A DNA stretch of 64,000 nucleotides from an uncultured Bellilinea sp. (GTDB taxonomy: Bacteria > Chloroflexota > Anaerolineae > Anaerolineales > Anaerolineaceae). This document shows, piece after piece, positions 11,631 to 56,765 of this stretch (positions within the stretch are counted from its first letter, which is position 1; the number at the start of each line of letters is the position of its first letter). Position numbers and translations under genes: made by a program. Location of the stretch: contig CALHYE010000013.1 of assembly GCA_938040735.1 (NCBI GenBank), positions 1 through 64,000 of the forward strand, given 5' to 3'. The notes under the pieces were generated by a model. The model was not told the DNA's origin and did no database searches. It saw only the letters and a program-made list of their open reading frames with translations.

Positions 11631-12379
11631 CGCATAGAATGTTGCTCTACAGAAGTGGCAGCATTCCGGCGCAATTCGGGTACCGGGATATACACCTCAT
11701 CGTTGTTCTCGGCGATGTATTCTGGCTCTGGCCGTCTTTCTTCAGGTTTGCGCGTCCTCGCGTAATAAGCCTCCCTGCGGGTCAATCGTAAAGGCTGCGG
11801 GACTGGCATGGAGGGGCTGCTTGAATTGTTTTGCGGTCGCGTCGTACTCCCCGCAGGTACACGTTGAGCAAACCTCTCTTCTGACCACGTCGCGCCAAAA
11901 GAAAAAGTGCCGATCAACAGGATACGGGTAATCCATACCAACACGGCGATAAAGACGGGTATCACTTCAATCAATATCTCCGGCGAGATGAAAGAACTGC
12001 TTTGAAGGGTACGATTGACTAATGCCAGTGAGATGCTCCACCAGGTCAAGACGGCATTCATCGTAGCCGCAATCAACCAGGCTCCCATCAAGTACCAGGT
12101 TTCTTTCGTATCGTGCGATTCCGGCAAGAACAACCGCGCTATTCCGGCGAAATCAATCCCGCAAAAAGCGACAGCCAGAATCGTTGCCCACCGAAAACCG
12201 GCAAAACGCAAGTCTCCCAACAAATCCCCCAAGGCGAGTTCGGTGGTGCTGTAATTGAACATCTCAAATCCGATCAAAGCCACCGCCAGAATTGCCCCAT
12301 AAATCGCTTTCCGCTGGTCTTGGAGATAATGAAGCGCTCTTTGCCAATCGTTTGGCTCAAAATAGGGTCTAGCACTCAT
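11627..12379 (-). CDS. Unknown four-helix membrane protein
   Basis: A 250-residue integral membrane protein not recognised. Four hydrophobic segments at about 25-43, 63-84, 95-121 and 133-160 are followed by a 90-residue soluble, proline- and arginine-rich tail (about 165-250). The N-terminus is preceded by CAGGAG. It has one of the best promoters of the window, a perfect TTGACA-17-TATAAT, so it is probably strongly expressed or tightly controlled. It lies between the HAD-like gene (convergent, 4-base overlap) and corA (upstream, same strand). Confidence 0.75.
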   Translation of the reverse strand: MSARPYFEPNDWQRALHYLQDQRKAIYGAILAVALIGFEMFNYSTTELALGDLLGDLRFAGFRWATILAVAFCGIDFAGIARLFLPESHDTKETWYLMGAWLIAATMNAVLTWWSISLALVNRTLQSSSFISPEILIEVIPVFIAVLVWITRILLIGTFSFGATWSEERFAQRVPAGSTTRPQNNSSSPSMPVPQPLRLTRREAYYARTRKPEERRPEPEYIAENNDEVYIPVPELRRNAATSVEQHSMR

Positions 12380-12420
12380 CTCATATACTCCTGCACAAAG
12401 GAACGATTTTGTGCAAGATT

Positions 12421-12449
12421 ATTATAGAACACATTTTCTATTTTGTCAA
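12421..12449 (-). promoter_or_regulatory. Perfect-consensus sigma70 promoter
   Basis: On the minus strand: TTGACA (12449-12444), 17-base spacer, TATAAT (12426-12421). Both hexamers are exact consensus. It drives the four-helix membrane protein and begins 1 base after the corA stop. Confidence 0.88.
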
Positions 12450-12450
12450 A

Positions 12451-13425
12451 TTAAAACCAGCGTCGTTTCCTGAAAAAGGTCAACATACCAACGACAATCA
12501 AAACAAAAATCAGCCACACCATGGGATAACCCCATCTCCACTCCAGTTCAGGCATATATCGGAAATTCATCCCGTACACCCCTGCTACAAAAGAAAGCGG
12601 CAGGAAAATGGTTGAAACAATGGTCAATGCCTTCATGACCTCATTCAAACGGAGAGAGGTTGCATTGAGATAAACTTCTAAAGCGCTGGTGGTCAGATCC
12701 CGGATACCATCTAATTGGTCAAATATCCTTACCAGATGATCGTAAATATCACGGAAATACATTCTGCTTTGGGAGTCAATCATTGGAAAATCATCCCGAC
12801 ACAAACGATTGATGACCTCACGCTGGGGAGCGATCACCCGCCGCAGGGTCATCGTATAGCGTTTCAATCGTAAGATTCGTTCAAGGGTTTTCGGGTCAGG
12901 ATTTGAAAGCACTGCCTCTTCCAGATAATCAATTTCTTCTTCCAATTGATCCAGATGTGGAATGAAGTCATCTACCACTTGATCTAACAATCCATGACAG
13001 AGAAAATCAGAACCATTCTGATAAAGCCGTTCATCTTTTTCAAGTCGTTTCCTGAAATTTTCAACAGCTGAAATTTTTCTCAGGGCGCTGGAAACCATGT
13101 AATTTTTTCCGAGGAAAATATTCAATTCTCGGGTTGGCTCATCCTCAAAAGAAAGATCGTTGGTCACCGATTGAACGATCAAAAACAAATAATCGCCATA
13201 ATCATCAATCTTGGGTGTTTGGTATCCATCCGATTGACAGTCTTCCACCGCCAGTGGATGAAAGTGAAATTGATTCACCATGACACGGGTCATCTCCTCC
13301 GAGTCGGGTTCCTGAAGGTCCACCCATACCAATCCTTCAGGATCGGCAAGCGCGCTTCTCAAGGAAGAAAATGGCAAATTTAATTGTGGAGCGCCAATTT
13401 TTGGAAAATAAACTATTCTGATCAT
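12451..13425 (-). CDS. corA: CorA-family magnesium/cobalt transporter
   Basis: Pentameric Mg2+ channel of the inner membrane. The 324-residue protein has the usual large cytoplasmic N-terminal domain (VWVDLQEPDSEE near 33-44, HPLAVEDC near 56-63, long alpha-helices 140-250) and two C-terminal helices. The signature YGMNF sits at the end of the first helix (about 284-288), followed by an acidic-aromatic loop (PELEWRW) in the position of the selectivity loop, and a second helix ending with the basic cluster FRKRRWF. The start at 13425 has only a weak AAAGAGAG site. Divergent from the acyl carrier protein gene. Confidence 0.93.
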   Translation of the reverse strand: MIRIVYFPKIGAPQLNLPFSSLRSALADPEGLVWVDLQEPDSEEMTRVMVNQFHFHPLAVEDCQSDGYQTPKIDDYGDYLFLIVQSVTNDLSFEDEPTRELNIFLGKNYMVSSALRKISAVENFRKRLEKDERLYQNGSDFLCHGLLDQVVDDFIPHLDQLEEEIDYLEEAVLSNPDPKTLERILRLKRYTMTLRRVIAPQREVINRLCRDDFPMIDSQSRMYFRDIYDHLVRIFDQLDGIRDLTTSALEVYLNATSLRLNEVMKALTIVSTIFLPLSFVAGVYGMNFRYMPELEWRWGYPMVWLIFVLIVVGMLTFFRKRRWF

Positions 13426-13475
13426 CGAAGAAACTCTCTTTATGTGGATGAAACTGAATTTTTTCCAGTATAGGC

Positions 13476-13503
13476 TTGACAGAATAGATAGGAAAGTTAC
13501 AAT
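13476..13503 (+). promoter_or_regulatory. Promoter of the acyl carrier protein gene
   Basis: TTGACA (13476-13481), 16-base spacer, TACAAT (13498-13503), giving a leader of about 30 bases. Confidence 0.8.
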
Positions 13504-13541
13504 AATTTCACAGTAGGCATAATCTATACGGAGGTTTTGGT

Positions 13542-13778
13542 ATGAGTGATCTTTACGAAGAGGTCAAAGCAGTTATTGTGGAAGTCCTGAAAGTGGATGC
13601 GGCAGAAATCACTCCAGAAACGCGCTTTATTGAAGATCTCAAGGCTGACTCAATGGATCAGTTTTTCCTGATTGACGGATTGAGCGAAAAATTCGATCTG
13701 GCAATCAGCGATGAGGACGCCCGCCAAATCAGATCGGTGCAAGATGCGATAAATTACATTCAAGCCCATAAAAAGTAA
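13542..13778 (+). CDS. Acyl carrier protein, atypical
   Basis: A 78-residue phosphopantetheine carrier. The attachment serine is S42 in KADSMDQFF. The common fatty-acid ACP sequence is DSLDxVELxMxxE; here the recognition helix reads DSMDQFFLIDGLSEKF, with FF replacing the acidic VE pair. This suggests a dedicated partner rather than the general type II fatty acid synthase, or a lineage-specific form. GGAGG precedes the ATG by 7 bases. It is monocistronic, with its own promoter and a strong shared terminator. A link with the alpha-oxoamine synthase 4 kb away is conceivable, because serine palmitoyltransferases of some bacteria use a special ACP, but the sequence does not prove it. Confidence 0.88.
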   Translation: MSDLYEEVKAVIVEVLKVDAAEITPETRFIEDLKADSMDQFFLIDGLSEKFDLAISDEDARQIRSVQDAINYIQAHKK

Positions 13779-13782
13779 AAAT

Positions 13783-13838
13783 AAAGAAGTAGCGTAGGAA
13801 CAGTTGGGAGGTTTTTCATTTCCACGCTACTTCTTTTA
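13783..13838. terminator. Bidirectional terminator between acp and sucD
   Basis: A 12-bp perfect stem (AAAGAAGTAGCG / CGCTACTTCTTT) with A-rich flank on the left and T-rich flank on the right serves both converging units. Confidence 0.85.
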
Positions 13839-13857
13839 TACCCCTAAATTAATTTTT

Positions 13858-14724
13858 TCAACCTTGCAATAAAGCCGGTATTTCTTCGGGGTGGCGTGCC
13901 ACTCGGACACCCGCGTTGTTTAAGGCGTGGATTTTGTCTGCAGCAGTACCGCTCCCGCCCTCAATGATGGCACCGGCGTGTCCCATTCGTTTGCCGGGTG
14001 GCGCAGTTTGTCCAGCAATAAAGGCAACCACCGGTTTCGTCATGTGTCGTGAAATGTATTCAGCGGCTTTCTCCTCATCTGAACCACCGATTTCGCCAAT
14101 CAAAATCACACGTTCAGTATACGGATCCGCCTCGAACAGACTTAACGCATCAATAAATGATGTACCATTGATCGGATCTCCCCCAATGCCAACGCAAGTG
14201 CTGGCTCCCATACCGTGGAGTTTGAGGGCATACAATACTTCGTAAGTTAAAGTTCCAGAACGGGAAACGACTCCAATGTCACCGGGAATAGCAATGTTTC
14301 CCGGGATGATTCCCACCTTTGCCTCTCCGGGAGTTAACGCTCCAGGGCAATTTGGGCCAACCAAACGGACGCCTTTTTGATCCAGATAAGCGCGAACAGC
14401 CATCATATCCTGGACTGGAATACCCTCCGTAATGCAGAAAATGAGCGGAACGCCGGAATCAGCCGCCTCAAAAATAGCATCGGCTGCAAAACGAGCCGGC
14501 ACAAAAATGACCGAAACATTCGCCCCAGTCGCTTCCACCGCCACCTTAACCGAGTCAAAAACCGGCACTTTTCCATCCAGCACCCACTCACCGCCCTTCC
14601 CGGGGGTAACGCCGGCCACGACATTTGTTCCGTAAGCGAGCATCTGCTGAGCGTGGAATGAGCCTTCGTGTCCGGTTATCCCTTGCACCACCACGCGCGA
14701 TTGTTTATTGATCAGGATACTCAT
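13858..14724 (-). CDS. sucD: Succinyl-CoA synthetase alpha subunit
   Basis: Subunit of the citric-acid-cycle enzyme that converts succinyl-CoA to succinate with NDP phosphorylation. The 288 residues show the CoA-binding Rossmann start [11 protein letters not shown] (11-21), GPNCPG (123-128), [12 protein letters not shown] (151-162) and the phospho-histidine H249 in [12 protein letters not shown]. The start codon overlaps the sucC stop by 4 bases (ATGA), so translation is coupled. A bidirectional terminator lies 20 bases beyond its stop. Confidence 0.97.
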
Positions 14725-47795: not shown

Positions 47796-48641
47796 ATGCC
47801 AAAATGGATACTCTCTCTCGTATTAATCTTGGTTTTCTTAGCCGGCTGCAATTTACCAACTAGTGGTAGCCCAACCCCAACCATTGATTTGGTGGGGACA
47901 CAGATAGCCGCAATCTTAACCAGCCAACCGACCGTTCAACCGCCTCTAACCGACACCCCTGCCTCAACCGTCCAGCCGGCTCAACCCATCTCTGCTACGC
48001 CCACCCCAACTACTTCTCCCGAACCTTCCCCCACCCCTACCCCCATTGGTGAAGATCCTCGCCGGGTTTTGGGTAACCCCACCTTCGTGGATACGCTGGA
48101 CAGCGGCCGATCCTTTGGTTTGCAGGACAAACCTTACGACGATGATTACACCTTCATCCGCGTCGAAAATGGCGCGCTGGTGCTGACCAGCCGTTACGCC
48201 ACCGGTTACCGCGGTTGGCGCACCGGCGGCGCCAAAGTCGGAAACGCCTACCTGGAGACCCTCGTCCGCACGGGGGAATGCGGCGGTTTAGATACCTACG
48301 GTTTGGTTTTTCGCTCGCCGGATTTCGTAAAGGGATACTGGTTTCAACTGACCTGCGATGGTCAATGGGCATTTGGCTACTGGGATGGACAACAGTACGT
48401 CAATCTTGCGGAGGGCGGCAATCTCAATGATGCCATTCGTACCGGCTCCAACCAGACCAATCGAATTGGGGTTTACGCAGTCGGCGGCAACTATACCCTG
48501 TACATCAATGGGATTAAAATCCGCGAAATTAGCGACAATACCTTTACCGAGCCCGGCTCATACGGCATCGTGATTGCTGCCCGCAACACCCCAAATTTCA
48601 CTGTTTACGCCGAAGAATTTGCCTACTGGCGTCTGGATTAG
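47796..48641 (+). CDS. Lipoprotein with concanavalin-like beta-sandwich domain
   Basis: 281 residues. Signal peptide with lipobox LAGC (residues 15-18), so it is a membrane-anchored surface lipoprotein. Residues 20-85 are a Pro/Thr/Ser-rich linker. Residues 95-281 form a beta-rich domain resembling laminin-G/glucanase-fold proteins: GNPTFVDTLDSG, TYGLVFRSPDFVKGYWF, LYINGIKI and GSYGIVIAAR. No catalytic residues are evident, so a sugar- or protein-binding role is inferred. ATG 47796 follows a weak AAGGATG site. A short gap precedes the exonuclease gene. Confidence 0.85.
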   Translation: MPKWILSLVLILVFLAGCNLPTSGSPTPTIDLVGTQIAAILTSQPTVQPPLTDTPASTVQPAQPISATPTPTTSPEPSPTPTPIGEDPRRVLGNPTFVDTLDSGRSFGLQDKPYDDDYTFIRVENGALVLTSRYATGYRGWRTGGAKVGNAYLETLVRTGECGGLDTYGLVFRSPDFVKGYWFQLTCDGQWAFGYWDGQQYVNLAEGGNLNDAIRTGSNQTNRIGVYAVGGNYTLYINGIKIREISDNTFTEPGSYGIVIAARNTPNFTVYAEEFAYWRLD

Positions 48642-48646
48642 TCTCT

Positions 48647-49225
48647 ATGTCAATGCCTTTCGATCCCCATCGTCAGCAAGTCATTCAACAAGCCCGCCAA
48701 TGGATCAGCGAAAAGCCGGTTTACATAGATACCGAAACCACCGGTTTAGATAAAACCGCCGAAATCGTCGAAATTGCCGTTATTGACCACGATGGCTCTA
48801 CCCTGTTTGAATCGCTTGTCCGACCATCCCGCCCCATTCCGCCGGACCTTACTGAAATTCACGGGATTGACAACCAAATGGTGGACAGGGCTCCCCCTTT
48901 TCCGGTTGTCTGGGCCTCATTGCGCGGTTTGCTGATTGCGCGAAAGATTGCCGTTTATAACGCAGAATTCGACCTGCGGATGATGCGCCAATCGTTTGAA
49001 ACCTATAAACTTCCGTGGAAAGAGCGGCTAATAACCCTTGATATTATGGTGTTATATGCCGCTTATCGCGGCGAGTGGGATGCCACTCGCCGGGCTTACC
49101 GCTTCTTCAAATTAGAAGAAGCCGGTCGAAGTCTGAAAATCCCCTTACCCAATTCTCACCGGGCTGCGGATGATGCCCGCCTGACCCGTGCGTTGCTTCA
49201 CGCAATTGCCGGTGCGAATGATTAA
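48647..49225 (+). CDS. DEDDh 3'-5' exonuclease (DnaQ-like)
   Basis: 192 residues of the epsilon-subunit/exonuclease family. Catalytic residues D28 and E30 (YIDTETTGLD), D109 (YNAEFDL), H171 and D176 (HRAADDARLT) are all in place. The N-terminus has about 20 extra helical residues. It is smaller than the DNA polymerase III epsilon subunit C-terminus would need, so it is likely a stand-alone exonuclease. It starts 6 bases after the lipoprotein stop, and the next gene starts inside its end. Confidence 0.92.
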   Translation: MSMPFDPHRQQVIQQARQWISEKPVYIDTETTGLDKTAEIVEIAVIDHDGSTLFESLVRPSRPIPPDLTEIHGIDNQMVDRAPPFPVVWASLRGLLIARKIAVYNAEFDLRMMRQSFETYKLPWKERLITLDIMVLYAAYRGEWDATRRAYRFFKLEEAGRSLKIPLPNSHRAADDARLTRALLHAIAGAND

Positions 49226-51356
49226 CCCGCTTCCCCTGATGAATCTGCCAAAATTATCCTCTGAACAACTTCAAGCAGCTCAAGCCCCTTTGAACCGAAA
49301 AATCTTTCTGCAAGGCGAACCGGGCAGTGGCAAAACCACGGCTGGATTGGCGCGTTTGGCTTTTCTTTTAGAAAGCGGCATCCCGGCTGAGCAAATTTTA
49401 ATTTTGCTGCCCCAGCGCACCTTAGCCAAACCGTATTATGATTACCTGACCCAAAATCCCCTTCCTCCCGGTAGTTTGCCAACCATCGTCACGCTGGGAG
49501 GTTTGAGTCAGCGAACCATACAATTATTTTGGCCGGCTATCAGCGCTGAAGCAGGATTTGCCCGGCCTCATCAGCCGCCTTTGTTTCTCACCCTGGAAAC
49601 CGCCCAATACTACATGTCCAAAGTTGTTGAGCCGTTTCTTAATCAGGGTTATTTTGAACAACTGGTGATTGATCGTAACCGCCTTTACTCCCAACTGCTG
49701 GATAACCTCAACAAAGCGGCGCTGATTGGGTTTGCGCACACAACGCTCGGTGAACGCTTGAAACAAGCCTGGAACGGCCAGCCCCAGCATTTGATTTTAT
49801 TCGACCAAGCCCAGGATTGCATGAATGCCTTTCGGGAATATTGTATGGCAAACAACTTGCTGGATTTCTCCCTGCAAATCGAGTTGTTCATTCACTACTT
49901 GTGGCGTTCTTTTCTGGTGCGCAATTATTTGCACACCCATTTCCATCACCTGATTTACGATAACATTGAAGAAGATGCGCCTGCTGCCCACGATGTGATT
50001 GGTGAGTGGCTGCCGGTTTTCGACTCAGCCTTGCTTATTTACGATCAGCAGGGTGGATACCGGGTATTTTTGGGAGCCGATCCGCAATCGGCAGCCTCGC
50101 TGGCTGACTTTTGTGATGAAATTGTGGAATTTCCCCCCAACCTGATTTGCCCTCCGACTGTCCGCCAGTTTCAATCTGCCCTGGTTAAAGCCGTTCAGCG
50201 CCAACTGACGCATGAAGAACTGACTCCCCCCATCAAGACGGCGTTTAGCCATTTGCCTGCCCGTTTTTACCCGGAGATGGTGGACCAGGTTTGTAAAACC
50301 ATTGATGAATTAGTCCACCAAAAACAGGTGGCTCCATCTGAAATTGCCGTGTTGGCTCCGTTCATGTCCGATTCGTTGCGGTTTTCGCTGATGAGCCGGC
50401 TGGAAGAATACCAGATACCTGCCCGCTCCCACCGACCTTCTCGCAGCCTCTACGATGAACCGGCAGTGCGTACCCTGATCACATTGGCGAAATTAGCCCA
50501 CCCCCATTGGGAGATGCCCCCCAGCCGCGAGGAAATTCGCTCCATGCTGGTGCATTGCATCGAAGATCTCGATTTAGTGCGTGCTGACCTGCTAATGCAA
50601 ATGGGATTTACTGCCAAAAAGCAATCCTTCCCCTTGCGTCCTTTTGAAGAAATTGGCGAAGATGGCCGCGAAAGAATCACTTATTCGGCCGGATTGCGTT
50701 ATTCCCGGCTGCGCGAATGGCTGTTGAATTATATTGAGCAGGGAGAAGAAGAGGAACTGGATGTCTTTTTTGCCTTTTTGTTTGGAGAAGTATTATCGCA
50801 GCCCGGTTATGGGTTTCACGATCATTTAGACGATGCTGCCGTTACCGCTCGTGTGATTGAGTCCATTAAAAAATTTCGGCAGGTAATTGAACCCGTACGC
50901 AGCCAGCAGCCAGGTTTTTCAGTAGGGATGGAATATCTGAACATGGTCGGGCAGGGGGTTATTTCAGCCCTTTATCTGCCCCCTTCCGAAGAAGAGGATG
51001 CCGTCTTAATTTCACCGGCTTATTCCTTCATCATCAACAATCGTTCGGTACGGTTTCAATTCTGGTTAGATTGTGGCAACTATGGCTGGTGGGAACGTTT
51101 ATTTCAACCGCTCACTCATCCGTATGTTCTCAGCCGCAACTGGCAGCCGGGAAGGTTGTGGACCGATGCGGATGAGTACGAAACCAACCAGCAATCCCTG
51201 ATTCGGATCATTCGGGGTCTCACCTACCGCTGCCGAGAGCATATCTTCCTTTGCACCAGCCGTATCAATGAACGTGGCGCCGAAGAGCGTGGCGCTTTGT
51301 TGCTGGCTTTTCAGGGATTACTGCGCCGGTTACATCAGCAAGGGGGAGAATCATGA
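49218..51356 (+). CDS. AddB-like SF1 helicase-fold protein without nuclease domain
   Basis: About 712 residues with a UvrD-like core. Motif I is intact: FLQGEPGSGKTTAG. Motif II is altered (LIYDNIEEDAPAAHD instead of DExQD), motif III-like VFLGADPQS, and the C-terminal motif VI region reads LTYRCREHIFLCTSRINERG. The pattern, a kept Walker A with worn helicase motifs, recalls AddB/RexB; the C-terminal nuclease domain and its cysteines are missing. In this operon those features are on the third protein. Start may be ATG 49218 or ATG 49239; there is no clear ribosome site. Overlaps the helicase gene by ATGA. Confidence 0.75.
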   Translation: MINPLPLMNLPKLSSEQLQAAQAPLNRKIFLQGEPGSGKTTAGLARLAFLLESGIPAEQILILLPQRTLAKPYYDYLTQNPLPPGSLPTIVTLGGLSQRTIQLFWPAISAEAGFARPHQPPLFLTLETAQYYMSKVVEPFLNQGYFEQLVIDRNRLYSQLLDNLNKAALIGFAHTTLGERLKQAWNGQPQHLILFDQAQDCMNAFREYCMANNLLDFSLQIELFIHYLWRSFLVRNYLHTHFHHLIYDNIEEDAPAAHDVIGEWLPVFDSALLIYDQQGGYRVFLGADPQSAASLADFCDEIVEFPPNLICPPTVRQFQSALVKAVQRQLTHEELTPPIKTAFSHLPARFYPEMVDQVCKTIDELVHQKQVAPSEIAVLAPFMSDSLRFSLMSRLEEYQIPARSHRPSRSLYDEPAVRTLITLAKLAHPHWEMPPSREEIRSMLVHCIEDLDLVRADLLMQMGFTAKKQSFPLRPFEEIGEDGRERITYSAGLRYSRLREWLLNYIEQGEEEELDVFFAFLFGEVLSQPGYGFHDHLDDAAVTARVIESIKKFRQVIEPVRSQQPGFSVGMEYLNMVGQGVISALYLPPSEEEDAVLISPAYSFIINNRSVRFQFWLDCGNYGWWERLFQPLTHPYVLSRNWQPGRLWTDADEYETNQQSLIRIIRGLTYRCREHIFLCTSRINERGAEERGALLLAFQGLLRRLHQQGGES

Positions 51357-53620
51357 ATAACCGCCATCAGCCTCGCCCCCATCAAACCCAAATCCTGAAT
51401 TATTCCGGCGGATGGATGGGAGTTTCGGCTGTTCCCGGCAGTGGAAAAACCTATACGCTTTCATTGCTGGCTGCCCAAATTATCACCAGCGGCCAAATCA
51501 ACGAAGAACAGGAAGTCTTAATCGTCACCCTGGTCAATTCCGCAGTGGATAACTTTGCCGGCCGGATTGGTTCGTTCGTCGAACAATTTGGTTTGATGCC
51601 CGACATGAACTACCGCGTCCGCACCTTACATGGGTTAGCGCATGACATCGTGCGCGAACGACCAGACCTGGCCGGTCTTTCCGACCGCTTCAGCATCGCC
51701 GATGATCGGGACAGCGACGAGATTGTCAAAGCGGCAGTTTCAGGCTGGATGCGCTCCCATCCGGAATTTATCCTGGAATGGACAAACCCCAACCTCAACC
51801 CCCAAAGGAATTCTGACCTGCCCAAGAAATGGGAGGATCTGCTGGTGAAAGTGGGACGGGCATGCATCCGCCAGGCTAAGGATCTGCAGCTATCCCCTCA
51901 GCAGTTACGCGATCAATTGAGCAATACCCGCTACAATCATTCTCTGCTTCAATTTGGGTTGGATATTTACGAAACTTATCAACGCGGCTTGGCGCTGCGC
52001 AGCTTGATTGATTTTGATGACCTGATCCGGCTGGCGTTGAGTGTCCTCAATACCGATTTGGATTATTTGCAGCGGTTGCGCTACCGTTTTCCTTACATAT
52101 TGGAGGATGAAGCTCAGGATAGTTCACGGCTTCAAGAAGAAATTTTACGCCGGTTGGCTGGGGAAGGCGGCAACTGGGTGCGGGTAGGCGACCCAAACCA
52201 AGCCATCTACGAGACCTTTACCACCGCCAGCCCGGATTATTTGCGCCGTTTTCTCAAACTCCTAAGCGTCCAGGCCTATGACCTGCCCGATTCAGGACGC
52301 TCAACGGTCAGCATCATTCGTCTGGCAAATGAACTCATCCGCTGGACGATGGAAGACCACCCGGTAGAAGCGTTGAGAAGCGCGCTGACTCCCCCGTACA
52401 TTCGCCCGACGCCCCCCGGTGATCCGCAGCCAAATCCGCCGGACGAACCCGATGAAATCTTCCTTGTGAGAAAAAAATTCTCCCCGGATGGGGAAATTAA
52501 AGCCGTGGTGGACTCGCTCAAACGCTGGATGCCGGAACACCCCGATCAAACCGTGGCCGTGCTTGTGCCCCGCAATGAACGCGGCAGCAAAGTGGTCAAC
52601 GCCCTAAAAAGCGCCGGTCTCCCCGTAATCGAGCTGCTTCAATCCAGCCAAACGACCCGGCAAACCGCTGCAGTTCTGGAAAAAATCCTCAAAAGTCTCA
52701 ACAAAGCCGCCGATTCCAGATTACTGATGGAAGTTCTAAAGGAAGTAATCCGGCTGCTATACCCGGAAAATGCTCCGGAAAATGGAGTTGTCCAGCAGGC
52801 TGCTCATTTATTATTGACCAATACTCAACCCGAAAATTATCTCTATCCGCGGCTCGAAAACAACTGGCTGGAGGGGTTACGCCGCAGAGAGGATTTACTC
52901 CCTCAAACAATCCAAATTTTGGAAGATTTTGGTTTGCTCATTCGCCGCTGGCAGCAAGCCATTCTGCTGCCCATTGACCAGTTGATCCTGACCATTGCGC
53001 AGGATTTGTTCCACGAACCAACCCAACTGGCTCTGTCGCACAGTCTCGCCCTTCTGCTGGGACGCACGGCTCAGCGTCACCCCGAATGGCAGCTGCCGCA
53101 ACTGACCGAGGAATTAGGGATGATTGCTCGTAATGAACGGCGCATCCTCGGTTTTAGTGATGAAGAACCGGGATTTGACCCGGACGAACACCCCGGCAAA
53201 GTAGTGGTGTCCACCATTCACAAAGCTAAAGGGCTGGAATGGGACCGGGTTTACCTGATGTCGGTCAATAATTATGACTTTCCCTCTGCCCAGGGATTTG
53301 ACCGCTACTACTCCGAAAAATACTTTGTCCGCAATCAACTTAATCTGGAAGCCGAAGCGCTTAGCCGTCTGAAAGCCCTTGCCAATAAAGAACTGACATC
53401 CCTGTATCTGGAAGAAGGCATCGCCACCCAGCAGGCCCGCCTGGAATACTGCGCTGAACGACTGCGTTTGTTATATGTTGGCATTACCCGCGCCCGGCGT
53501 TCCTTGATCATGACATGGAACACCGGAAAAGATACGCAAGGCAGCGAGAACTCTCCCGCTTTACCCTTTGTCCATCTACAAAAGTTTTGGGAGGAATACC
53601 GCCGTGAAACTTCCGCCTGA
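51353..53620 (+). CDS. UvrD/AddA-like superfamily 1 DNA helicase
   Basis: 755 residues with complete motifs: I SAVPGSGKT (25-33), II ILEDEAQDSS, III WVRVGDPNQAIYETF, IV near DLPDSGRSTVSIIRLANELI (split), V VVSTIHKAKGLEWDRVYLM, VI LLYVGITRARRSLIM. This makes it an active 3'-5' helicase of the UvrD/PcrA/AddA type. It has no nuclease domain, unlike AddA. The next gene supplies one, and the preceding gene a degenerate partner helicase, so the three may form an AddAB-like end-processing complex. Overlaps both neighbours. Confidence 0.92.
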   Translation: MNNRHQPRPHQTQILNYSGGWMGVSAVPGSGKTYTLSLLAAQIITSGQINEEQEVLIVTLVNSAVDNFAGRIGSFVEQFGLMPDMNYRVRTLHGLAHDIVRERPDLAGLSDRFSIADDRDSDEIVKAAVSGWMRSHPEFILEWTNPNLNPQRNSDLPKKWEDLLVKVGRACIRQAKDLQLSPQQLRDQLSNTRYNHSLLQFGLDIYETYQRGLALRSLIDFDDLIRLALSVLNTDLDYLQRLRYRFPYILEDEAQDSSRLQEEILRRLAGEGGNWVRVGDPNQAIYETFTTASPDYLRRFLKLLSVQAYDLPDSGRSTVSIIRLANELIRWTMEDHPVEALRSALTPPYIRPTPPGDPQPNPPDEPDEIFLVRKKFSPDGEIKAVVDSLKRWMPEHPDQTVAVLVPRNERGSKVVNALKSAGLPVIELLQSSQTTRQTAAVLEKILKSLNKAADSRLLMEVLKEVIRLLYPENAPENGVVQQAAHLLLTNTQPENYLYPRLENNWLEGLRRREDLLPQTIQILEDFGLLIRRWQQAILLPIDQLILTIAQDLFHEPTQLALSHSLALLLGRTAQRHPEWQLPQLTEELGMIARNERRILGFSDEEPGFDPDEHPGKVVVSTIHKAKGLEWDRVYLMSVNNYDFPSAQGFDRYYSEKYFVRNQLNLEAEALSRLKALANKELTSLYLEEGIATQQARLEYCAERLRLLYVGITRARRSLIMTWNTGKDTQGSENSPALPFVHLQKFWEEYRRETSA

Positions 53621-54428
53621 TTTTTCTTTCAGCCAAAATAATTTGCAGGATTTTTTGGAATGTCCCCGCCGCTTTGAATTGCGTTATCTGCTGCGTCAAC
53701 CCTGGCCGGCCATTCAATCTCAACCCGTTGTGGAACACGAACAACATCTGCGCCGCGGAGAGATTTTTCATCAGATGGTGCAGCAACACCAAATCGGCTT
53801 GCCTGTGGATAAAATCGGCGCTCAGGCTTACGATCAAACCCTGTTGGGCTGGTGGGAAGATTACCTCGGAAGCATGCCGCAGCCCTTGCCTGAACATCGT
53901 TTGGTTGAACACACCCTGCAAAGCGCTCATAGCGGCTACCGCTTCATTGCCAAATTCGACCTGATCGCCATTCAACCCGGCGAAAAAATGATCATTGTGG
54001 ACTGGAAAACCAGCCGGCGCAAACCCCCGCGCGCCATCCTCTCCCAACGCATTCAGACCCGCCTGTATCCATTTCTTTTATGGAAGTGTTCTGGCGCGTT
54101 TGATCAAGCAATCTCCTACTCGCCCGAACAAATTGAAATGATTTACTGGTTCACGGCGGATCCGCTCAGCCCCGAACGCTTCAAATACTCCCAAAAGCAG
54201 GCCGAGCGTGACGGGGAGTACCTGCTCGAACTGGTTCAACAGGTCGAGCATCATACTCAAACCTACTTTCCGCTGACTTCACAGGAGCAGCGTTGTTCGC
54301 TGTGCGTCTATCGCTCGCTGTGCAATCGAGGTATCACCGCCGGGAACATAGATGATGAGATCGATGAGGAAGTGGATGATGACCGGCTGGATATCGCTTT
54401 CGATCAAATTGGTGAGACCGAATTTTAG
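53604..54428 (+). CDS. Stand-alone Fe-S PD-(D/E)XK nuclease (AddB/Cas4-like)
   Basis: 274 residues, RecB/AddB-type nuclease. Active site: H56 (GEIFHQMV), D119 (KFDLI), D133 and K135 (IIVDWKTSRR), and Q151-Y155 of the QxxxY motif. Four cysteines C20, C231, C234 and C240 have the spacing of the 4Fe-4S staple seen in AddB and Cas4 nucleases. The C-terminus is strongly acidic. I start at GTG 53604 (GAGGAATA upstream), 17 bases inside the helicase gene; an earlier ATG at 53568 is less likely. Immediately followed by recJ. Confidence 0.9.
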   Translation: MKLPPDFSFSQNNLQDFLECPRRFELRYLLRQPWPAIQSQPVVEHEQHLRRGEIFHQMVQQHQIGLPVDKIGAQAYDQTLLGWWEDYLGSMPQPLPEHRLVEHTLQSAHSGYRFIAKFDLIAIQPGEKMIIVDWKTSRRKPPRAILSQRIQTRLYPFLLWKCSGAFDQAISYSPEQIEMIYWFTADPLSPERFKYSQKQAERDGEYLLELVQQVEHHTQTYFPLTSQEQRCSLCVYRSLCNRGITAGNIDDEIDEEVDDDRLDIAFDQIGETEF

Positions 54429-56765
54429 ATGAAAAAGCTGTTTGCCGGTATTGAACGAATCTGGCTGGACGCTGACGAAACTCCCATTCCACCGGGAATC
54501 CAGCAATTAGCGGGAGAGAATTCCCTGCTGGCTCGCACGCTTGCCCGGCGCGGACTGAAAACCTTTGAGGATGCCCGCGCCTTTTTGGATCATCGCTTTT
54601 ACCACCCGGCTGACCCCCGCGACATGCCGGATGTGGAAAAAGGGGTGAACTTGATTCACAACGCCATTTTCACAGGAAAGAAAATCGGCGTTTGGGGCGA
54701 TTTTGATGTGGACGGACAGACCGCCACCACGCTGCTGGTTTCAACCCTCAAATCGCTTGGTGCGCAGGTCGAATATTACATTCCCGTGCGTGAGCGCGAA
54801 TCGCACGGTGTTAATATTGAAGGTTTGGAGCGGATGCTCGCGAAGGGGGTGAAGGTCATCCTCACCTGCGATACGGGCATCAGCGCTCACCCCGCCGCGG
54901 AATTTTTGCGCCAGCGCGGTGTTGCTTTTGTGATCACCGATCACCACTCCCTGCCCGAAATACTCCCCGCGGCTGACGCGGTGATCAACCCCCAGCGTTT
55001 ACCCAACGATCATCCCATGCACAGCCTGGCCGGGGTTGGAACTGCTTTTGTTTTTGCACAAGCCCTGTGTCAGAAAATGGGGAAACCCGAAGTGGCCGAA
55101 GAACATCTCGATCTGGTCGCTTTGGGGTGCGTGGCCGATGTGGCTATTCTGCGCGGGGATACCCGCTATTGGGTTCAGCGGGGGTTGGAATCGCTGCGCA
55201 ACCCGCGCCGACCGGCGCTTTTACAACTCATGCAAAATGCTGAAATCAACCCGGCCCACCTGAACGAACAACATATTGGCTTTAGTCTTGCTCCGCGTTT
55301 GAACGCCATCGGGCGGCTGGGCGATGCGAACCCGGTTGTCGAGTTCCTTTCCTCCACCGATTCGCAAGCCATTGCCGTTTTTGCCGCTCAATTGGAAGGC
55401 TACAACAGCCAGCGCCGTTTTCTCACCGATCAGGTCTTCCTCGCCTCTTTACAGCAGATTGATCAGGACCCGCGGGTCTTGGATTTTGCGGCGCTGGTTT
55501 TGCACCACCCCGAATGGCCCGGCGGCATCAACGGCATCGTTGCCAGTCGGCTGGTTGAGATCTTTCAACGCCCGGTAATTTTACTAAGTTCTCCCCCCGG
55601 CCAGCCCATGCGCGGTTCGGCTCGCTCGGTGGAAGGGATCAACATCACAGCAGCGATTGCCAGCGCACAAAAGCTGCTGATTGGTTTTGGCGGTCATCCA
55701 ATGGCCGCCGGTCTGGCTTTACCGCCTGAGAATTTTCACGAATTTCGCCGTCTGGTTTCCGCTCACGTGGAGTACCAGCGAGCCCAAAATCAACAAAAAC
55801 CGATGATCACCGTAGATGCGTGGGTGAAAATCCATGATTTAGATTTGAAATGGATTGAGGAATTAGAAAAACTGGCTCCTTTTGGCGCTGGCAATCCACC
55901 CCTCGTTTTCGCCAGCCGCAACCTCACTTTGCTGAACGCAGCCCCGATTGGTAAAAATCAGGAACACCTGATGACCCTTGTGGAGGACGAGGAAGGGAAC
56001 ACCCGCCGCGTGATCTGGTGGCAGGGCGCCCGCTCCTTGCTGCCTGAGGGGCGCTTTGATCTGGCGTACCATGCCCGACCAGTTAACTTCGGCGGCGATT
56101 TGGAGGTGCAGTTGGAGTGGATTGTTGCCCGCCCGTTGGAAACTGAAGCCGTTCGTCTCTCAGACACCAGACAGATTGAAATTCTTGACCTGCGTACCGA
56201 CCAATCTCCGTTCGAGCGACTGGCTCAATTGGCCATATCCCCCGATCAAGTCGTCATCTGGGCGGACGGGGCGGTCAATCTCGATATACCGGTTAAGCGC
56301 CGTTGGCAGCTTGTCCCGGCCGAAACGCTGGTCGTCTGCTCTCCGCCACCCTCCCAAAAGATATTATCCGATGCAATCCGGCAAGTTCGAGCCAAGAGAA
56401 TCATCCTGTGCTGGCTTGAAGAGCCCAATGACAAACCCCAGGCATTTTTACAGGCTCTATCTGGCATGATCCGGTATGTATTAAGGAAGAATGGCGGTCG
56501 GGCATCCTTACCCCAATTGGCTGCTGCCTTAAATCAGCGTGAAGAAACTATCCACACGGGACTTGAATGGCTGGCTGGCAAGGGATTTATCCGGTTCATT
56601 GAACGGGAAGGTCAATCCCTCGTAATCGCCGAAGGCGGCATTCCAGACCCCTTGCTGGTCAAGGAAAAAGAAGCGCGGCTGCGTTCTTTGCTGGAAGAAA
56701 GCCGCGCCTTTCGCGAATTTTATCGGCAGGCATCTCCTCTCAGTCTGATTAGGGAAAATCCTTAA
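54429..56765 (+). CDS. recJ: Single-stranded-DNA-specific exonuclease RecJ
   Basis: 778 residues. Degrades 5'-ended single strands in recombinational and mismatch repair. DHH-family motifs: DFDVDG (91-96; DYDVDG in most), CDTG (147-150), DHH (171-173), then the DHHA1 motif GFGGHPMAAGLAL and an OB domain. About 200 C-terminal residues add a winged-helix-like extension (LRKNGGRASLPQLAAAL) beyond the core enzyme. Starts directly after the nuclease stop codon and ends overlapping the AIM24 gene by 4 bases. Confidence 0.94.
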   Translation: MKKLFAGIERIWLDADETPIPPGIQQLAGENSLLARTLARRGLKTFEDARAFLDHRFYHPADPRDMPDVEKGVNLIHNAIFTGKKIGVWGDFDVDGQTATTLLVSTLKSLGAQVEYYIPVRERESHGVNIEGLERMLAKGVKVILTCDTGISAHPAAEFLRQRGVAFVITDHHSLPEILPAADAVINPQRLPNDHPMHSLAGVGTAFVFAQALCQKMGKPEVAEEHLDLVALGCVADVAILRGDTRYWVQRGLESLRNPRRPALLQLMQNAEINPAHLNEQHIGFSLAPRLNAIGRLGDANPVVEFLSSTDSQAIAVFAAQLEGYNSQRRFLTDQVFLASLQQIDQDPRVLDFAALVLHHPEWPGGINGIVASRLVEIFQRPVILLSSPPGQPMRGSARSVEGINITAAIASAQKLLIGFGGHPMAAGLALPPENFHEFRRLVSAHVEYQRAQNQQKPMITVDAWVKIHDLDLKWIEELEKLAPFGAGNPPLVFASRNLTLLNAAPIGKNQEHLMTLVEDEEGNTRRVIWWQGARSLLPEGRFDLAYHARPVNFGGDLEVQLEWIVARPLETEAVRLSDTRQIEILDLRTDQSPFERLAQLAISPDQVVIWADGAVNLDIPVKRRWQLVPAETLVVCSPPPSQKILSDAIRQVRAKRIILCWLEEPNDKPQAFLQALSGMIRYVLRKNGGRASLPQLAAALNQREETIHTGLEWLAGKGFIRFIEREGQSLVIAEGGIPDPLLVKEKEARLRSLLEESRAFREFYRQASPLSLIRENP

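Follow-up and report, generated by a model that had tools for sequence, protein, structure and literature searches.

In the recombination-starting helicase-nucleases known to us, RecBCD, AddAB, and AdnAB, the nucleases form part of helicase-fold chains. A gene cluster of an uncultured Bellilinea sp. raised the question of whether a machine of this type could be built from unfused subunits. The window, a stretch of 64,000 nucleotides, is part of contig 13 of a genome with a size of 1.71 Mb and a completeness of 77%. Five open reading frames (ORFs) were located head to tail on the + strand at 48647–56765 of the window, overlapping or abutting each other, as an earlier note on this DNA had claimed. 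The Pfam domains also agreed with the DEDDh exonuclease, helicase folds, nuclease, and RecJ that were named there. The four ORFs downstream of the exonuclease gene were termed B, H, N, and RecJ2.

The helicase-fold proteins B and H

The first ORF (48647–49225, + strand) encodes a DEDDh-type 3'–5' exonuclease (Pfam RNase_T, E = 1.7e-23). Among the 21 relative loci holding both genes, it immediately preceded B in 13, and it was ruled out as a core part since it was missing from many relative loci and from the plasmid pSR56 described below. A lipoprotein-like gene (47796–48641), with a borderline match to a 3-keto-disaccharide hydrolase, was observed upstream of the DEDDh gene and accompanies it in many relatives.

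B (49188–51356, + strand; Pfam UvrD N-terminal domain, E = 9e-6) was assigned as an inactivated SF1A helicase-fold subunit, and was 90% identical to B of Bellilinea caldifistulae (Anaerolineaceae, Chloroflexota). Its start codon is probably the ATG at 49218 or 49239 rather than the GTG at 49188. The intact Walker A and degenerate other motifs noticed earlier in this single protein held across the family. The Walker A lysine was kept in 114 of 116 distinct homologues and the motif-VI arginine in 115, and the position of the motif-II catalytic glutamate was occupied by asparagine in all 116, within a constant D-N-x-E-E block. Since this asparagine is uniform in a strongly conserved block, the replacement looks like a functional state rather than decay.

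The structure of B predicted by AlphaFold2 (pLDDT 91, pTM 0.88) contained the whole SF1A fold. When the model was compared with known structures, the top Z score was obtained with UvrD-group chains (28.8), followed by AdnB (616 residues, Z 25.3, r.m.s.d. 4.7) and AddB (604 residues, Z 21.4, r.m.s.d. 6.1). The alignment with AdnB is long and tight, and together with that of AddB it favours a machine of the AddAB/AdnAB type, against which the order by Z score speaks. In profile comparison, B matched the AddB helicase-like region (E = 9e-10) ahead of H (6e-7) and AddA (1e-6). No match to the ADDB_N domain (PF21445) was found in B, whereas the canonical AddB of relatives does match it.

H (51353–53620, + strand) is a 755-residue UvrD-type 3'–5' helicase with both Pfam UvrD domains (N, E = 3e-43; C, E = 6e-24) and no nuclease domain. 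Motifs I–VI were essentially intact in 88 H proteins, in agreement with its earlier description as a complete helicase lacking a nuclease. The best NCBIfam matches of H were PcrA/Rep (132 bits), above addA (80 bits), and in the phylogenetic tree the H proteins grouped together, away from the PcrA and AddA encoded by the same genomes. By sequence, H is therefore a separate UvrD-like clade and not AddA. H was ruled out as the PcrA/UvrD of the genome for ten relatives, each of which has a separate PcrA-like helicase (E ~1e-90), and in three relatives the UvrD-family helicases over threshold were limited to PcrA and H, joined by B in two of the three. PcrA was not found in the window genome, probably because this genome is 77% complete. 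The only other UvrD-family gene found there (contig 23, 3819–5882) encodes a UvrD-like helicase that bears a NERD nuclease-related domain at its N-terminus.

The free nuclease N and the module RecJ

N (53604–54428, + strand; PDDEXK_1, E = 1.5e-26) is a PD-(D/E)XK nuclease of 274 residues encoded by a separate ORF, for which the GTG at 53604 is probably preferred over the TTG at 53568 as start codon. Residues Cys20, Cys231, Cys234, and Cys240, the predicted four-cysteine iron-sulfur staple, were invariant in 71 of 71 N proteins, and the nuclease residues (Asp119 and the D-W-K motif at Lys135) were kept too. The profile of N matched the AddB nuclease (E = 1.8e-8) with the cysteines aligned, whereas the match to the AddA nuclease was weak (1.6e-3). 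The resemblance to the AddB staple seen in the earlier note was thus borne out by sequence and profile. The predicted structure of N (AlphaFold2, pLDDT 86) was nearest to the AdnA nuclease (Z 18.3, 221 residues, r.m.s.d. 2.7), followed by the AddB nuclease (Z 15.2 over 230 residues) and the Argonaute-associated ACE1 (also 15.2), with lower values for Cas4 (Z ~12) and RecB (Z 10.6). Taken with the sequence and profile, this places N among the AddB-type four-cysteine nucleases, with a predicted Fe-S cluster. The window genome (77% complete) yielded no second PDDEXK_1 protein, and no natural B–N or H–N fusions were seen by ORF length among the matches listed. N was ruled out as a CRISPR Cas4, since it scored 18.8 bits against a cas4 cut-off of 65 and its neighbours are repair genes.

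RecJ2 (54429–56765, + strand) is a long RecJ paralogue of 778 residues with DHH, DHHA1, and RecJ_OB domains, and scored 471 bits in the recJ model against a cut-off of 396.9. The relatives carry two RecJ proteins, a housekeeping one of ~570–630 residues and a module one of ~780 residues, and the window genome holds both (contig 2, 59927–61522, and contig 13, at 54522, respectively). In the RecJ tree, 14 housekeeping and 22 module proteins were split with full SH-aLRT support. The existence of a second, short RecJ and the separate clade of the module protein ruled out RecJ2 as an ordinary housekeeping neighbour. The long RecJ was present in 37 of 40 scorable module genomes and in 1 of 14 genomes without the module, that one being 64% complete. 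Because RecJ2 forms its own clade and tracks the module, the conserved unit, as judged from these comparisons, is B–H–N–RecJ2, with the DEDDh exonuclease optional. The three-subunit reading proposed earlier was correct in that the set is AddAB-like and its nuclease is a separate chain, but the unit has four parts, to which the dedicated RecJ belongs. A C-terminal extension of ~200 residues was observed past the RecJ domains of RecJ2, part of which, in the pSR56 copy, weakly matches a PaaX-like profile.

Conservation, transfer, and comparison with known machines

The module was compared among 101 relative genomes, with weak B matches left out of the count. A free B ORF of ~700 residues occurred in 65 genomes and H in 66, with both in 63. 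B occurred alone in two genomes and H alone in three; all five are draft genomes, and the H matches in the latter three were fragmentary, mostly at contig ends. The p-values of this co-occurrence are descriptive only, as they ignore shared ancestry. In the relative loci holding both partners, B and H were adjacent in 44 of 46 (median overlap 8 nt), H and N in 43 of 45, and N and RecJ in 35 of 38. B and N were separate ORFs in the relatives' loci examined. The conservation of the B, H, and N trio was therefore upheld among relatives. In one family the genes are dispersed, but none of the four (B, H, N, and the long RecJ) is missing. The divergences of B, H, and N were correlated (0.78–0.84), although shared ancestry alone yields such values. 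Strong B matches were confined to Anaerolineae among 300 sampled Chloroflexota genomes. No description of this operon in Chloroflexota was found in the literature covered, most subscription papers lying outside it.

When 72,556 plasmids were searched by tblastn, one full set was found, on pSR56 of Salinibacter ruber M8 (Rhodothermota; NC_014028.1, 8059–17884). The order B–H–N–RecJ was the same as in the window, with identities of 40, 43, 39, and 41%, respectively, and the H and RecJ of pSR56 fell inside the module clades of the H and RecJ trees. The set is located behind an XRE/Peptidase_M78 regulator and a 202-residue protein with no Pfam match. A distant B (23% identity) was found on pILYOP01 of Ilyobacter polytropus (11998–13971), where it has neither H nor N nor RecJ as a neighbour. 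Since gene order and paralogue identity are kept across phyla, B, H, N, and RecJ very likely work together. What sequence and comparison establish is which parts and motifs the module has, that its genes are inherited together, and that two phyla hold it as a four-gene cassette.

Canonical AddAB or RecBCD, the presence of which was to be checked according to the earlier note, was not found in the window genome (77% complete). The RecC domain (PF04257) was detected in one of the 101 genomes, which lacks the module, and gave no match in the window genome, so that the module was not assigned to RecBCD. The AddB N-terminal domain occurred together with at least part of the trio in 14 relatives, and without the trio in five. 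In the 49 module genomes that are at least 90% complete, counted by hand and approximately among the matches listed, 13 contained the AddB N-terminal domain, two a fused nuclease ORF of >1100 residues, and about 34 neither. The module therefore appears, from these matches, to be the only candidate of its kind seen in most of these bacteria. It is not simply interchangeable with AddAB, because the 14 relatives keep canonical AddB too.

AddAB couples one SF1A motor to two nucleases, of which that of AddA cuts the 3' strand. AddB contributes both the nuclease for the 5' strand and, in its helicase-like domain, the reader of Chi (PMC4824097). Like AddAB of the Bacillus subtilis type, the module has one active SF1A motor, an inactivated helicase-fold partner with an ATP-binding site, and an AddB-type Fe-S PD-(D/E)XK nuclease, the cluster being predicted in the module. 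However, the module nuclease is a free protein, B lacks the ADDB_N signature, the motor lacks the AddA nuclease and is closer to PcrA/Rep, and a dedicated RecJ is included in the operon. AddA is a helicase with a C-terminal nuclease in one chain of ~1100–1230 residues, which H is not, and AddB has its helicase-like N-terminal region fused to the Fe-S nuclease, whereas B and N are separate. When compared with AdnAB of mycobacteria, predicted B covers the AdnB helicase region and N is nearest to the AdnA nuclease domain, but AdnA and AdnB each have a fused nuclease while the module has a single, unfused one. Judged by these fused-chain features the module is not AddAB, and is better called AddAB/AdnAB-like. 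The idea of a split AddAB accordingly stood for B, which aligned best with AddB, and for N, which aligned with the AddB/AdnA nuclease, but, by sequence, not for H.

Proposed mechanism and alternative functions

The module is, somewhat more probably than not, an AddAB/AdnAB-type double-strand-break resection machine built from unfused subunits. In such a machine, H would serve as the single 3'–5' motor and B as its inactivated-helicase partner, in the role of AddB or of the RecC N-terminus. B probably binds ATP without hydrolysing it, and may guide or scan the 3' strand. N would be an iron-sulfur nuclease with two tasks, holding DNA ends and, like the AddB nuclease, cutting the 5'-terminated strand, and RecJ2 a further 5'–3' exonuclease trimming the same strand. 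As the module contains no equivalent of the AddA nuclease, unless the DEDDh enzyme acts as 3'-strand nuclease where it is present, the 3' strand is expected to stay intact. The 3' overhang for RecA would then be the direct product. Assembly, strand choice, and any Chi-like control are likewise proposed by analogy with AddAB. The resemblance of H to PcrA/Rep rather than AddA and the canonical AddB kept in 14 relatives speak against this assignment, and carriage on a plasmid fits a defence role as well.

A defence system, in which the same unwinding and strand degradation would be aimed at incoming or plasmid DNA, is the main rival, although it appears unlikely. The whole cassette on pSR56 lies behind the XRE/Peptidase_M78 regulator, N also resembles ACE1, and the top PADLOC matches of H were GajB models (E = 2e-46). 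In Gabija, GajB lies beside GajA, and no GajA-like protein was found in the ORFs adjoining H. Synechococcus elongatus is transformed more readily and maintains RSF1010 better on loss of a Cas4-like nuclease, a UvrD, a RecJ paralogue, and a PD-(D/E)XK protein (PMC10653904). By description, this set resembles the module in its Cas4-like nuclease, UvrD paralogue, and second RecJ sharing one restriction phenotype, but it is tied to Argonaute and plasmid restriction and no B is named (PMC10653904). Cyanobacteria with a second RecJ have also been described (PMC5101192). Against a defence role, the module is widespread in Anaerolineales, flanked by ordinary genes such as ssb and smc, and is not patchy like defence genes, and no B was found in 50,697 phage records or in IMG/VR.

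It is still less probable that the genes encode separate repair enzymes sharing an operon with no AddAB-like complex. In that case, H would be a helicase for forks or gaps, acting with RecJ2, N would be a solo Cas4-like exonuclease, and B a regulator. In favour of this reading, operons with unfused UvrD and Cas4-like genes have been described from Clostridiales (PMC5704561), H is PcrA/Rep-like, and AddAB is also present in some relatives. Against it, all four genes are retained even where they are unlinked, and they stay together in the plasmid cassette; moreover, the lack of a catalytic role in B itself suggests that B is a partner subunit. The Clostridiales operons, as described, resemble the module in having an unfused UvrD beside a PF12705 nuclease in a non-defence context, and differ from it in the absence of a B subunit and RecJ (PMC5704561). 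The H–N pair is therefore less new than the four-part set.

A resection machine of unfused subunits may, more tentatively and with the balance rather against it, be a class of its own among the bacterial machines for DNA-end resection, the fourth after RecBCD, AddAB, and AdnAB. This class would be a four-protein, phylum-crossing cassette acting on the 5' strand only, perhaps in repair as well as in restriction of foreign DNA, and would need no Chi switch because the 3'-strand nuclease is absent. An unfused machine, having a single nuclease and a dedicated RecJ, would allow each activity to be left out separately, and would reveal which of its components Chi-like control depends on. A link between repair and defence becomes testable through the possible parallel with the cyanobacterial cas4/uvrD/recJ-paralogue set. 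The module would also provide a presynaptic system for bacteria that seemingly have none.
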